Positions 1 through 34,535 of a DNA stretch of 64,000 nucleotides are shown here, piece by piece. A model generated the notes under the pieces. It did no database searches. It was not told where the DNA came from and was given only the letters and a program-made list of their open reading frames with translations. Position 1 is the first letter of the stretch. Each line of letters begins with the position of its first letter. A program made the position numbers and the translations under genes. Origin of the DNA: Candidatus Gemmiger stercoravium (GTDB taxonomy: Bacteria; Bacillota; Clostridia; Oscillospirales; Ruminococcaceae); assembly GCA_019119835.1 (NCBI GenBank), contig DWWE01000015.1:1-64000 (forward strand), in the 5' to 3' direction.

Positions 1-60
1 GTCGCAGAATGCAAGCGCCGTCCAAGGCGCGCCGCATGATGCGGGCACCGCAACCCGGAC

Positions 61-146
61 ATACACAAGGGGAAACAGCCGCGTTAGGCAATTGCCGTGC
101 GCGGCTGTTGCCTCTTGTGCAGCGTGTCGAGGAACTCGACACGCTG
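61..146 (-). repeat. Truncated copy (A) of a dispersed multi-hairpin repeat
   Basis: Contains atacacaaggggaaacagccgcgttaggcaattgccgtgcgcggctgttgcctcttgtg and the hairpin agcgtgtcgag-gaa-ctcgacacgct. These match the copies near 4.7, 12.9 and 33.4 kb; the second half of the element is missing. Confidence 0.85.
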
Positions 147-4722: not shown

Positions 4723-4938
4723 CAGCGTGTCGAGAAACTCGACACGCTGCAAAAGGGGCAACAGCCGCGCACGGCAATTGCCTAACGCGTCTGTTTCCCC
4801 TTTTGGGAACCCCTTCGACAAAATTTTGCGGCAAATCGCGCACTCGTCGCTATGCTCCTCGCACACAATTTGCCGCAAAATTTCCCTGTCGGTGTCGCCG
4901 TCGTCGGCGCATGTCCGCCGACGGCGACGGTTTTTGAC
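4723..4938 (+). repeat. Copy B of the dispersed multi-hairpin repeat
   Basis: Ordered hairpins: GCGTGTCGAG/CTCGACACGC; ACAGCCGCG...CGCGTCTGT; TTTTGCGGCAAAT/ATTTGCCGCAAAA; GTCGCCGTCGTCGGC/GCCGACGGCGAC. Confidence 0.9.
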
Positions 4939-11073: not shown

Positions 11074-12489
11074 TCAGTGGGCGGCGTGGCGGGCTTCCAG
11101 ATCGCCCTTCATGGTGTTGAGGGTCTTGCGGTCCAGGTTGTAGATCAGGCCATAGCTGACCAGCGAGAGGACGCCGCCGATCAGGTACATCGTCGGGGTC
11201 AGGTAGCGCATGTTCAGCGCCACCGCGGCGGGCTGGTCGGGGCCCAGCGTGGCGTTGTAGCCCAGCCAGGTGGCCAGCACGATGCCCAGGGAGGGGCCGA
11301 CGCCCTGCGCCAGCTTGCGGAAGAAGGAGTGCATCGCGTAGGTGGTGCCCTCGTTGCGCTCGCCGAACTTCCATTCCTCGTAGTCCATCGCATCGGCCAT
11401 CATGGCGTAGCCCACGCAGGTGCCGAAGCCGTTGCCGATGGCTGCGATGATCTGGCAGAAGACAAACAGACCGATGCCCTTGGCGTCCGGCGTGATGGGA
11501 AGCACCAGCATGAGGACGTAGGCGAAGCAGGTGATGATGCCGCCGATGATGCAGCCTTCCTTTTTGCCGAGCTTATTGACCAGGGGTTTGACAAAGGGCA
11601 TGAAGAGGAAGAGGCCCAGGTAGGAGAGCATCCCCACGGCGCCGGAGATCTGGGCGTTGCCGAAGTAAGCCTGGAAGAGAACGGTGGTGGCGGTCTGGGC
11701 GCCGTACATGCCGAACTGAACAGCCACGGCCGACAGGGTGGCGCCCACGGCGGGGCGGTTGCGGAAGAAGTTCTTCATCGCAACGAGGAAGTTGAACTTG
11801 GGGGCTTCTTCGCCGACCTTGACCTCGGTGTTGACCCGGATCTCGGTGGTGCGGATCATGAACTGGAAGCACAGCAGCCCGATGCCGCCCATGATCAGCG
11901 CCATCCAGAACATCCGCTGGCCGATCAGCACATTGTTGGCGTCATAGATCACGACGGGGATCAGGATGCCGGTGAGGATGCCGGCCACCATCGCGCCAGC
12001 GCTGCGGAAGCTGGAGATCTCGGCGCGCTGGGCGGGGTCGTCGGTGATCAGGGAGAGCAGCGAACCGTAGGGCACGTTGGCCACGGTGTAGAAGGCGTCC
12101 CAGATGATATAGCCGGCCACAAACATGATGCACTCGGCCACTTCCGGCAGGCCCGGGAAGGGCAGGAAGCAGAGGGCGCCGGCCACCGTCAGGCCAATGG
12201 CGCCCACATTGATGTAGGCCAGGAACTTGTTGCGCTTGTAGTGGCGGCGGTCAGCGTCCACCATCGAACCGATCAGCGGGTCGTTGATGGCGTCCCACAC
12301 CTGCACAAGCAGCAGCAGGCCGGCCATAAGGATCTGGTTGATCCCCATGAACTGGGTCCAGTAGACGGTCAGGCTGCCCTTTAAGGCAAAGCTCATGTTG
12401 CAGCCAAAGTCGCCGGCTGCGTAGCTGATGCGGTCCAGCCAACCGAATTTACGGTAGCCGTTGGCATCCAGGTTTTTGGTTTTTGCCAT
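11074..12489 (-). CDS. GPH-family (glycoside-pentoside-hexuronide:cation) symporter, copy 1
   Basis: SYAAGDFGCNMSFALKGSLTVYWTQFMGINQILMAGLLLLVQVWDAINDPLIGSMVD is typical of the GPH family. Confidence 0.9.
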   Translation of the reverse strand: MAKTKNLDANGYRKFGWLDRISYAAGDFGCNMSFALKGSLTVYWTQFMGINQILMAGLLLLVQVWDAINDPLIGSMVDADRRHYKRNKFLAYINVGAIGLTVAGALCFLPFPGLPEVAECIMFVAGYIIWDAFYTVANVPYGSLLSLITDDPAQRAEISSFRSAGAMVAGILTGILIPVVIYDANNVLIGQRMFWMALIMGGIGLLCFQFMIRTTEIRVNTEVKVGEEAPKFNFLVAMKNFFRNRPAVGATLSAVAVQFGMYGAQTATTVLFQAYFGNAQISGAVGMLSYLGLFLFMPFVKPLVNKLGKKEGCIIGGIITCFAYVLMLVLPITPDAKGIGLFVFCQIIAAIGNGFGTCVGYAMMADAMDYEEWKFGERNEGTTYAMHSFFRKLAQGVGPSLGIVLATWLGYNATLGPDQPAAVALNMRYLTPTMYLIGGVLSLVSYGLIYNLDRKTLNTMKGDLEARHAAH

Positions 12490-12929: not shown

Positions 12930-13221
12930 AGCGTGTCGAGAAACTCGACACGCTGCACAAGGGGCAACAGCCGCGCACGGCAATTGCCTAACGCGACTGT
13001 TTCCCCTTGTGTATCCCCTTTGACAAAATTTTACGGCAAACCGCGCACTCGGAGCAAAGCTCCTCGCACACAATTTGCCGCAAAATTTCCCTGTCGGTGT
13101 CGCCGTCGTCGGCGCACTGCGCCCGCAGGCGCGTTTCGGAGGCCAACCGGGCCGCAAGGCCCGGCTCTTAGGCCGGAGATGTCCGCCGACGGCGACGATT
13201 TGAGATATTTTCGACAGTCTG
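12930..13221 (+). repeat. Copy C of the dispersed multi-hairpin repeat, with a 63 bp insertion in the fourth hairpin loop
   Basis: Same hairpin order as copy B. Extra ctgcgcccgcaggcgc...ggccggaga at 13117-13179 inside the GTCGCCGTCGTCGGC/GCCGACGGCGAC hairpin; ends in GACAGTCTG as copy D does. Confidence 0.9.
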
Positions 13222-13306: not shown

Positions 13307-14722
13307 TTACTTGGCCGCGTGGCGCTCTTCCAGCTCCTTGGTCATGGTGGCCAGGGTCTTGCGGTCCAGGTTGTAGACCAGGCCGTAGGCCACGAGAGCC
13401 AGGACGGCACCAAGCAGATACATACCGGGAACCAGATACCGCATGTTCAGCGCGACCTCAGCGGGCTGGTTCTGCTGCAGGGTAGCATTGTAGCCGACGG
13501 CTGTGGCCAGCACAATGCCCAGGGAGGGGCCAACGCCCTGCGCCAGCTTGCGGAAGAAGGAGTACAGCGCGTAGGTGGTGCCTTCGTTGCGCTCGCCGTA
13601 TTTCCACTCTTCGTAGTCCATCGCATCGGCCATCAGAGCCCAGGCCACGCACTGGCTGAAGCCGTTGCCGACAGCCGCCAGCAGCTGGCAGAGAGCGTAC
13701 ATCACGAGGCCCTTGCCGTCCGGGGTGATGGGCAGAATGAACATCAGGATATAAGCGGCCACCGCGATCACGGCGCCGATGGTGCACATTTCCTTCTTGC
13801 CGACCTTACCGACCAGCGGCTTGATGAAGGGCAGGAAGGCGAACATGCCGACGTAGGAGACCATGGCCATCAGGCCGGAGATCTGGGCGTTCTTGAAGTA
13901 CGCCTGGAACAGAACCTGGGTGGCGGTGGAAGCGCCGTACATGCCGAGGAACATGGAAATCGCAGACAGGGTGGCGCCCAGCGCGGCGCGGTTGCGCACG
14001 AAGTTGAGCATGGCCTTGAAGATGTTGAACTTGGGGGTCTCTTCGCCGGCCTTGACCTCGGTGTTGATGCGCACGACGGTGGTGCGGACCATGAACTGGA
14101 AGCAGATCAGGCCCAGGCCGCCCATGAGCAGGGCGATCCAGAAGATGCGCTCGCCCATCAGAGCGTTGGAGGCATCATAGATGAGCATGGGCAGCAGGAT
14201 GGAGGTGCCGATGTTGGCGATCATCGCGCCGACGCTGCGCCAGGTGGACAGCTGGGAACGCTCGATCGGGTTGTCGGTGATCAGGGACAGCAGCGAGCCG
14301 TAGGGCACGTTGGCCACGGTGTAGAAGGCGTCCCACAGGATGTAGCCGGCCACGAACATGATGGCCTCGGCCACTTCCGGCAGGCCCGGGAAGGGCAGGA
14401 AGCACAGGGCGCCGGCCACGGTCAGGCCGATGCCGCCGGCGTTGACATACGCCAGGAACTTGTTGCGCTTGTAGTGGCGGCGGTCCGCGTCCACCATCGA
14501 GCCGATCAGCGGGTCGTTGATCGCGTCCCACACCTGCACGAGCAGGAGCAGGCCAGCCATAAGGATCTGATTGATGCCCATGAACTGGGTCCAGTAAATT
14601 GTCAGTGTACCTTTCAGGGCAAAGCTCATGTTACAGCCAAAGTCGCCGGCTGCGTAGCTGACTTTGTCGAGAAGGCCGAACTTGCGGGTGCCGTTGGCCG
14701 CCGCAGTGTTGGTTTGTGCCAT
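13307..14722 (-). CDS. GPH-family symporter, copy 2
   Basis: Same 471 aa length and highly similar to copy 1 throughout (VSYAAGDFGCNMSFALKGTLTIYWTQFMGINQ). Confidence 0.9.
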   Translation of the reverse strand: MAQTNTAAANGTRKFGLLDKVSYAAGDFGCNMSFALKGTLTIYWTQFMGINQILMAGLLLLVQVWDAINDPLIGSMVDADRRHYKRNKFLAYVNAGGIGLTVAGALCFLPFPGLPEVAEAIMFVAGYILWDAFYTVANVPYGSLLSLITDNPIERSQLSTWRSVGAMIANIGTSILLPMLIYDASNALMGERIFWIALLMGGLGLICFQFMVRTTVVRINTEVKAGEETPKFNIFKAMLNFVRNRAALGATLSAISMFLGMYGASTATQVLFQAYFKNAQISGLMAMVSYVGMFAFLPFIKPLVGKVGKKEMCTIGAVIAVAAYILMFILPITPDGKGLVMYALCQLLAAVGNGFSQCVAWALMADAMDYEEWKYGERNEGTTYALYSFFRKLAQGVGPSLGIVLATAVGYNATLQQNQPAEVALNMRYLVPGMYLLGAVLALVAYGLVYNLDRKTLATMTKELEERHAAK

Positions 14723-32519: not shown

Positions 32520-33359
32520 TCAGGGGGCGCCCTTGCCCTCCTGGTAGGCGGCTTTCAGCCGGCGCAGGCGCTCCAGCCGTTCCACCGCCCGGCCGCCCAG
32601 CCGGGCCGACACCGCCAGCACCAGCGCGTCCACCAGGGCGGCGGGGGCGGTCATCGAGTGGTATTCGTTCTCCTCGCCCCGGTAGACAAAGAGGGAGAGG
32701 TCGGCCCCGGGCGTGCCGGTGAGCTGGCCGGTGAAGAGCAGCGTGCGGTAGCCGGCCTGCTTTTGCAGGTCCAGGATGATCCGCCCTTCGGCCGAGAGTT
32801 TGGAAAAGCTGAACAGCACCACCAGGTCCCCCGCCTCGGCGGCGGCCAGGCCCTCCAGCAGCTCGCTGCCGCCGGCGGACAGGCGGTGTACCTCCACCCC
32901 GATGCGCCGCAGCCGGTAGCCCAGCAGTTCGGCCAGCGAGCGGGAGGCGTTTTTGGCGTACAGGTACACCCGCCGGGCCCCGGCGATGGCCTGCACCGCC
33001 TGCCCGAACTGGTCCGGGTCCAGCAGTTCCAGCGTTTTTTCCAGGCAGTAGCGCTGCTGTTCCATCCAGCGGGGCAGCAGCGCGCCGTCCCCTTCGGCCA
33101 GGGTGGCGGCGATCTTGCCCGCCGGGCCGGGGCGGGCGGGCTGGGTCTGTTCCAGCACCACCTGCTTGAGATGCTTGAAGTCCCGGCAGCCCACATGGCG
33201 GGCAAAGCGGGAGACGGTGGCCTCCGACATAGACAGTTCGGCGGCCAGCCGGGCGATGTTCATGAAGAGGAACTGGTCCCGGTTGCGGTTGATGTATTCA
33301 AGGATGGCGGTCTCGTTGGCCGTGAGTTTGTCCGGCATCCGGGGGAAGGTCAGCGGCAT
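32520..33359 (-). CDS. RpiR/MurR family transcriptional regulator (HTH + SIS)
   Basis: LTANETAILEYINRNRDQFLFMNIARLAAELSMSEATVSRFARHVGCRDFKHLK; SIS-type domain. Confidence 0.93.
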   Translation of the reverse strand: MPLTFPRMPDKLTANETAILEYINRNRDQFLFMNIARLAAELSMSEATVSRFARHVGCRDFKHLKQVVLEQTQPARPGPAGKIAATLAEGDGALLPRWMEQQRYCLEKTLELLDPDQFGQAVQAIAGARRVYLYAKNASRSLAELLGYRLRRIGVEVHRLSAGGSELLEGLAAAEAGDLVVLFSFSKLSAEGRIILDLQKQAGYRTLLFTGQLTGTPGADLSLFVYRGEENEYHSMTAPAALVDALVLAVSARLGGRAVERLERLRRLKAAYQEGKGAP

Positions 33360-33380: not shown

Positions 33381-33400
33381 GGACAGGGTCTACCCTGCCA
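33381..33400. repeat. Direct repeat flanking repeat copy D (left)
   Basis: GGACAGGGTCTACCCTGCCA, identical to 33631-33650. Confidence 0.9.
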
Positions 33401-33630
33401 CAGACTGTCAAAAAATATAAAATCCGTCGCCGTCGGCGGACATGTGCCGACGACGGCGACACCGCCAGGGAAATTTTACGGCAAATTGTGTGCGAGGAGC
33501 TTTGCTCCGAGTGCGCGATTTGCCGTAAAATTTTGTCGAAGGGGATACACAAGGGGAAACAGCCGCGTTAGGCGATTGCCGTGCGCGGCTGTTGCCTCTT
33601 GTGGAGCGTGTCGAGTTTCTCGACACGCTC
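33401..33630 (-). mobile_element. Copy D of the dispersed multi-hairpin repeat; probable non-autonomous mobile element
   Basis: 230 bp with all four hairpins, precisely bounded by identical 20 bp direct repeats. Confidence 0.75.
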
Positions 33631-33650
33631 GGACAGGGTCTACCCTGCCA
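33631..33650. repeat. Direct repeat flanking repeat copy D (right)
   Basis: GGACAGGGTCTACCCTGCCA, identical to 33381-33400. Confidence 0.9.
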
Positions 33651-33707: not shown

Positions 33708-34535
33708 TCAGCCGGCCCGCCGCTTGGCGGTGAGGACGGCCGGGGTCTCGCCGTGGCCCAGCAGCACCTGCACATAGTCGCCGCCCAGGGCGTGGACCTC
33801 CTTGAGCGCCCGCTTGAGGATGCCGGCGGTGCGCACCTTGAAGGCGGCTTCCGGGTGGACGACGATCTCATACCGGCCGGCCTTCATCTCGGCGTACAGG
33901 GCGTCGAAGGTGTCCGCATCCCGCTCGAACCGGGTGCGGATGCAGCCGTACTGGGTGGCCTGGTGGGTGTCGCTGCCCGCCACCACCGGCACCCCCAGCG
34001 CCTTGCCGAAGCCCCGGGTCAGCAGTTCGGTGCGGGTGCGGTCCTCGGCAATGTCCTTGCCGTTCATGTCGATAAAATCCAGCCGGGTCAGCAGTTCGGC
34101 GCTTTGTTCGGGGATGTGCCCGCCTGCCCGGAAGGGATGCGCCGCCCCCACCAGCACCGGGTAGCGGGCAAACAGGTCCAGCAGTTCGGCAAAGGGCAGG
34201 AAGGTCTCCCGCCGCTTGTGGGGTTCCAGCCGGCGGTTGAGTTCCCGGATGGCCTCCATCGGGCCGAGGCAGAGCACATGCCCGCCCTCGGCGATGTCGG
34301 TCTCCATGCCGGGGAAGACCTTCAGCCCGTCAAAGACGAAGGCGTCGCCCGCCGGCGTGCCCTGCCCGGCGATAAAGGCGTAGACCTCGTCAAACTGCTG
34401 GGTGTTGAAATGTTCGGTCAGGCAGATGGCGTCCAGCCCGGCGTTCCGGGCCTCCCCCAGCAGCCACCGGGTGTAGGGCACCGAAAAGGGCAGGTATTTG
34501 GCCAGCTTGCCGTGGGTGTGAAAATCCAGATACAT
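33708..34535 (-). CDS. PHP domain phosphoesterase
   Basis: YLDFHTHGKLAKYLPF, ICLTEHFNTQQ, HPFRAGGH and VVAGSDTHQATQYG metal-binding motifs. Confidence 0.85.
   Translation of the reverse strand: MYLDFHTHGKLAKYLPFSVPYTRWLLGEARNAGLDAICLTEHFNTQQFDEVYAFIAGQGTPAGDAFVFDGLKVFPGMETDIAEGGHVLCLGPMEAIRELNRRLEPHKRRETFLPFAELLDLFARYPVLVGAAHPFRAGGHIPEQSAELLTRLDFIDMNGKDIAEDRTRTELLTRGFGKALGVPVVAGSDTHQATQYGCIRTRFERDADTFDALYAEMKAGRYEIVVHPEAAFKVRTAGILKRALKEVHALGGDYVQVLLGHGETPAVLTAKRRAG

Follow-up and report, generated by a model that had tools for sequence, protein, structure and literature searches.

What places a ~230-bp multi-hairpin repeat between two identical 20-bp hairpins, in the space between two bacterial genes? 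We addressed this question in a 64,000-nt stretch of DNA from Candidatus Gemmiger stercoravium (hereafter the window). On its plus strand, GGACAGGGTCTACCCTGCCA occurs at 33381-33400 and, as an exact copy, at 33631-33650, with no other match in the window even at three mismatches and zero occurrences expected from shuffled controls. The two copies enclose a 230-bp element, copy D (33401-33630, plus strand), which sits between an rpiR-family regulator gene with HTH_6 and SIS domains (32520-33359, minus strand; PF01418, PF01380) and a PHP-domain gene (33708-34535, minus strand; PF13263). A preliminary description had reported the perfect repeat around a multi-hairpin element, the near-palindromic nature of the repeated target (CAGGGT-CT-ACCCTG), the position upstream of rpiR and the lack of a transposase. 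All of this was borne out: GGACAGGGTCTACCCTGCCA is a near-palindrome, and the 230 bp form four hairpins and contain no transposase open reading frame. As explanations, that description had offered insertion by an unusual mechanism that makes long target duplications, or site-specific insertion, and it had proposed a search for empty sites with one repeat copy, for duplications at other copies and for a transposase with matching ends. From the sequence comparisons below, we consider it probable, at roughly 0.88, that the element is a non-autonomous MITE moved in trans by an IS1182 DDE transposase, which would insert it at stem-loops and duplicate them.

The genome containing the window (2.36 Mb, 120 contigs) holds ~40 copies of the element, and several of its contigs terminate within copies. 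Full copies begin with CAGACTGTCGAAAAAGT, represented in copy D by the left terminal inverted repeat CAGACTGTCAAAAAATAT (33401-33418, plus strand), and end in a palindrome of 27 bp; read inward, the outer half of this palindrome is (C/G)AGCGTGTCGAG. The left-end pattern was found at 31 sites in the genome versus 0 for a reversed control. Terminal inverted repeats are present but imperfect (CAGACTGTCGA / CAGCGTGTCGA). In copy D, hairpins 1 to 4 occupy plus-strand positions 33426-33460, 33471-33533, 33548-33603 and 33604-33630; the outer half of hairpin 4, read inward (GAGCGTGTCGAG), constitutes the right terminal inverted repeat, and in most copies this hairpin adjoins the duplicated target. 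Three further copies lie in the window, none with a visible direct repeat: copy A (61-145, plus strand), cut by the contig start to its right part and adjoined there by a terminator-like hairpin (AAACCCCCGCCGCAGATCTGCGGCGGGGGTTT, 148-179); copy B (4724-4935, minus strand), with a decayed left end; and copy C (12930-13221, minus strand), in which the loop of hairpin 1 contains an insert of 62 bp. That insert (13117-13178) marks a subfamily with ~60 bp of G+C-rich sequence (CTCCGGCCTAAGAGCCGGGCC...) in this loop, also seen at L064, L065, L070 and L083. In a longer variant of 344 bp, an additional module separates hairpins 2 and 3 (GGGCTGCGGAGCCGAGCGCC...CCCGGACAT; window 1-60, L073 and L077), and L073 is flanked by its own 16-bp target repeat. 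Separately, copy C lies between two direct repeats of 78-79% identity (11080-12028 and 13313-14261) that are probably duplicated genes.

Folded as DNA with its flanks, copy D gave a minimum free energy of -95.6 kcal/mol (z = -13.2). Across an alignment of 30 copies, compensatory double changes occurred in 23 of 74 predicted pairs, involving all four hairpins, with persistent G-T pairs in hairpin 2. The consensus folded far better on the window plus strand than on the other (-110 vs -63 kcal/mol). Minority G-T pairs outnumbered A-C pairs on the plus strand (63 vs 8 cells) and in helices predicted for both strands (15 vs 3), a wobble bias that is only suggestive of selection on one strand, as RNA or single-stranded DNA, given that the consensus was derived with G-U allowed and that the aligned copies are related. 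The compensatory changes and the strand bias also speak for a rival account, in which the element is retained chiefly for a function as structured RNA or in regulation, and less for its mobility. We regard that account as improbable: within one genus, matches vary from 0 to ~30 per species, empty sites exist, and stable stem-loops have been reported for MITE transcripts in general (PMC10969869). An Rfam search with the element returned no family match. A structured RNA and a mobile element can, moreover, be one and the same.

To see how other copies are flanked, we compiled 33 distinct MITE copies with both flanks from the same genome and from sister species, most of whose genomes are split into many contigs. 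Direct repeats of 13-33 bp, taken as the longest word common to the left and right flank, were present in 18 of them, mostly right at the element ends or no more than ~15 bp from them. Mismatched flank pairs shared words of 5-13 bp, plus six values of 18-21 that we attribute to copies listed twice in this control. The duplicated targets, for example AAGCTCCGGTGTGAACCGGGGCTT (L013), AACGGCGGGCCCCGGGCCCGCCGTTT (L030) and CGGCATGCAGTACCCTGCATGCCGC (L041), are mutually unrelated in sequence; most form stem-loops, and several include a T-run, for which no clear orientation bias relative to the element was seen. We scored hairpins by folding z-scores, having dropped a count of perfect stems that undervalued imperfect hairpins. 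By this measure, 53% of the 36-nt stretches beside MITE ends folded with z < -2; for stretches at a distance of 80 nt, the share was 9% (p = 3e-8). A clear direct repeat was absent at 15 of the 33 copies, which we read as decayed, as recombinants between copies or as chimeric assemblies. At some copies (L004, L008 and L015), the two duplicates differ in the loop, and these differences may be real or assembly effects. Site-specific insertion, one of the two original proposals, fails at the level of sequence, as the targets differ at every site and have the stem-loop as their common feature.

Could the paired hairpins have been there before the element, or have arisen by recombination? Tandem terminators exist, and many copies carry differing hairpins at their two sides, so the idea deserves consideration. 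It is contradicted by empty sites with a single hairpin. At L036 (G008), a 33-bp repeat, ACGGGCCCGGGCGGTCAAACCGCCGGGCCCGAT, flanks the copy, while the orthologous sites of three sister species (G014, G046 and G009; 88-91% flank identity) lack the element and have one hairpin, which runs on into the right-hand flank. The window site behaves likewise in four relatives (G003, G041, G023 and G045; rpiR identity 73-77%): the element is absent, and a single hairpin, diverged in sequence, lies between rpiR and a stretch resembling the window's TTGTACCACAT, where the window itself has two hairpins. A search for an empty counterpart of L031 yielded no clean ortholog. The duplications also abut the element ends exactly and have a different sequence at each site, and we find pre-existing or recombinant pairs scarcely credible. 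Because empty sites hold one hairpin, the flanking repeats of the MITE represent target duplications. Together with the differing duplications elsewhere, they favor the long target duplication originally proposed. The element is, therefore, a short (230 bp), multicopy sequence without a transposase gene but with terminal inverted repeats, target duplications and empty sites, as is characteristic of MITEs.

The proposed search for a transposase with matching ends led to the IS1182 family, in relatives. The left end of the MITE, CAGACTGTCGAAAAAGTC, matches IS1182-family ends (CAGNCTGTC[GA]AAAAAG) from this bacterial family and from other Clostridia at 17 of 18 bases; the right end (CAGCGTGTCGAG) has only about 10-11 bases in common with them. 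Complete elements from other genera of the family (L122-L124) end in CAGCCTGTCGAAAAAGG or CAGTCTGTCGAAAAAGTC and are bordered by whole hairpins in exact duplicate (39, 29 and 31 bp). Their protein belongs to the IS1182 family (NF033551, 397 bits at a cut-off of 270), with DUF772 and DDE_Tnp_1_6 domains. A scan of named genomes yielded 80 relatives, 56 of them with usable flanks. Exact direct repeats of 17-39 bp, recognizable by eye as stem-loops, were present at 31 of these 56 loci, abutting or nearly abutting CAGNCTGTC[GA]AAAAA. In the complete chromosome of Chakrabartyella piscis, all nine fetched copies had exact repeats, with a separate hairpin for each copy, which rules out draft assembly as the source of the repeats. 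At loci lacking a repeat, the two ends often adjoin differing hairpins, as expected from recombination between copies or from chimeric assembly. Strong hairpins (z < -2) were present at 94% of IS1182 ends versus 11% of control stretches (p = 2e-20). The MITE and IS1182 share not only ends but also hairpin targets without a sequence consensus and duplications as long as the hairpin.

Closer to the window, IS1182 remains are fragmentary. In G010, from the same genus, CAGACTGTCAAATAAG and a terminator-like hairpin precede an IS1182-type transposase fragment, with CAGACTGTC beside a hairpin. On two contigs of this genome (G010:C45 and G010:C95; L227 and L229), both IS1182 ends lie beside the same 30-bp hairpin with an inverted loop (ATTC vs GAAT); this inversion could stem from assembly or hint that the hairpin is resolved as the element inserts. 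Ends of this type were not convincing in IS-like fragments from G006, G007 and G021. Neither the element nor the window's assembly (G000), which is 93% complete and fragmented at repeats, yielded an IS1182 transposase; we, therefore, infer the helper from relatives and file the element as a derived non-autonomous element rather than an IS. One other candidate from G000 was rejected as the mover. This DUF772-only protein of ~150 aa (L086:1390-1860, minus strand; G000:C36:16959-17162) consists of an IS5-like, not IS1182-like, transposase N-terminal domain alone, lacks a catalytic domain and also occurs in MITE-free genomes. About one such locus was present in 30 of 35 genomes of the genus, and the protein is possibly a domesticated transposase domain.

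In the mechanism that we propose, the IS1182 enzyme would move the MITE by recognizing element ends of the type CAGNCTGTCGAAAAAG and would target stem-loops irrespective of their sequence, in many cases transcription terminators. The enzyme, presumably recognizing the stem-loop as an extruded hairpin, would join the element by its 3' ends to both 5' feet of this structure, so that the stagger equals the hairpin in width. Repair would then copy the hairpin and leave one whole hairpin on each side of the element, which would explain the 20-bp palindromic duplication around copy D. Defined ends and targets and a 230-bp substrate would allow the idea of a structure-directed DDE transposase to be put to the test. 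A bolder version, which we hold to be unlikely, adds that the transposase reads the extruded stem-loop by shape and cuts at its 5' feet, and that the strand-biased fold of the MITE is part of the reaction, the element moving in the form of a folded single strand or by way of one. If true, it would describe a DDE system in which DNA secondary structure is the guide at donor and target alike.

Other enzymes are also directed by hairpins. Y1/HUH transposases (IS200/IS605 or REP-associated), group IIC intron machinery and Cas1-like, palindrome-duplicating integrases use hairpins or terminators, and the element is itself a string of hairpins, making a mover of this kind conceivable. We know of no target duplication by HUH elements or group IIC introns, in contrast to the long ones present here. 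Intron terminal features are missing from the element, in line with the absent Rfam match, and its ends match those of a DDE family with the same duplications. We consequently judge such a mover very improbable and retain IS1182 as the presumed helper.

Several known repeat families resemble the element in part. REP sequences with their RAYT (Y1) transposases are likewise repeated intergenic hairpins but, to our knowledge, differ in their ends and are not flanked by long target duplications. For BOX, RUP, SPRITE and QMITE2, too, we know of no long hairpin duplications. These families share with the element that they are short, repeated, intergenic, structured and non-autonomous, yet their ends differ from those described here (for BOX, RUP, SPRITE and QMITE2 of Coxiella, see PMC10969869). 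The 2024 review of prokaryotic MITEs does not mention IS1182 (PMC10969869). As an insertion that copies a terminator would keep termination on both sides, whole-hairpin duplication offers a plausible reason for accumulation near genes.

The closest likeness is to clostridial IS1182 elements, such as those of Gemmiger sp. An120 (L132) and C. piscis (L169-L175), which have the same ends (CAGNCTGTC[GA]AAAAAG) and exact whole-hairpin duplications; they differ in being ~1.5 kb long with a transposase gene, whereas the window element is 230 bp long, has no gene and has a palindromic right end. ISfinder-type tables give the direct repeats of the IS1182 family as 0-60 bp long and, if this is correct, long repeats as such are already on record. 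IS1272/TnSha1, members of this family in staphylococci, also target stem-loops, often terminators, without a sequence consensus (PMC4923244, PMC5678879), and, thus, resemble our system in targeting and in the transposase family of the presumed helper. There, however, the hairpin is lost: Furi et al. described its deletion without duplication (PMC4923244), and Wan et al. saw IS1272 replace the hairpin and sketched whole-hairpin duplication as the hypothetical pathway b (PMC5678879). Here, the whole hairpin is duplicated, by an element without a transposase gene. Within the open-licence literature, our data newly show that this hypothetical branch of the IS1272 paper is taken commonly in a large group of IS1182 elements from Clostridia.
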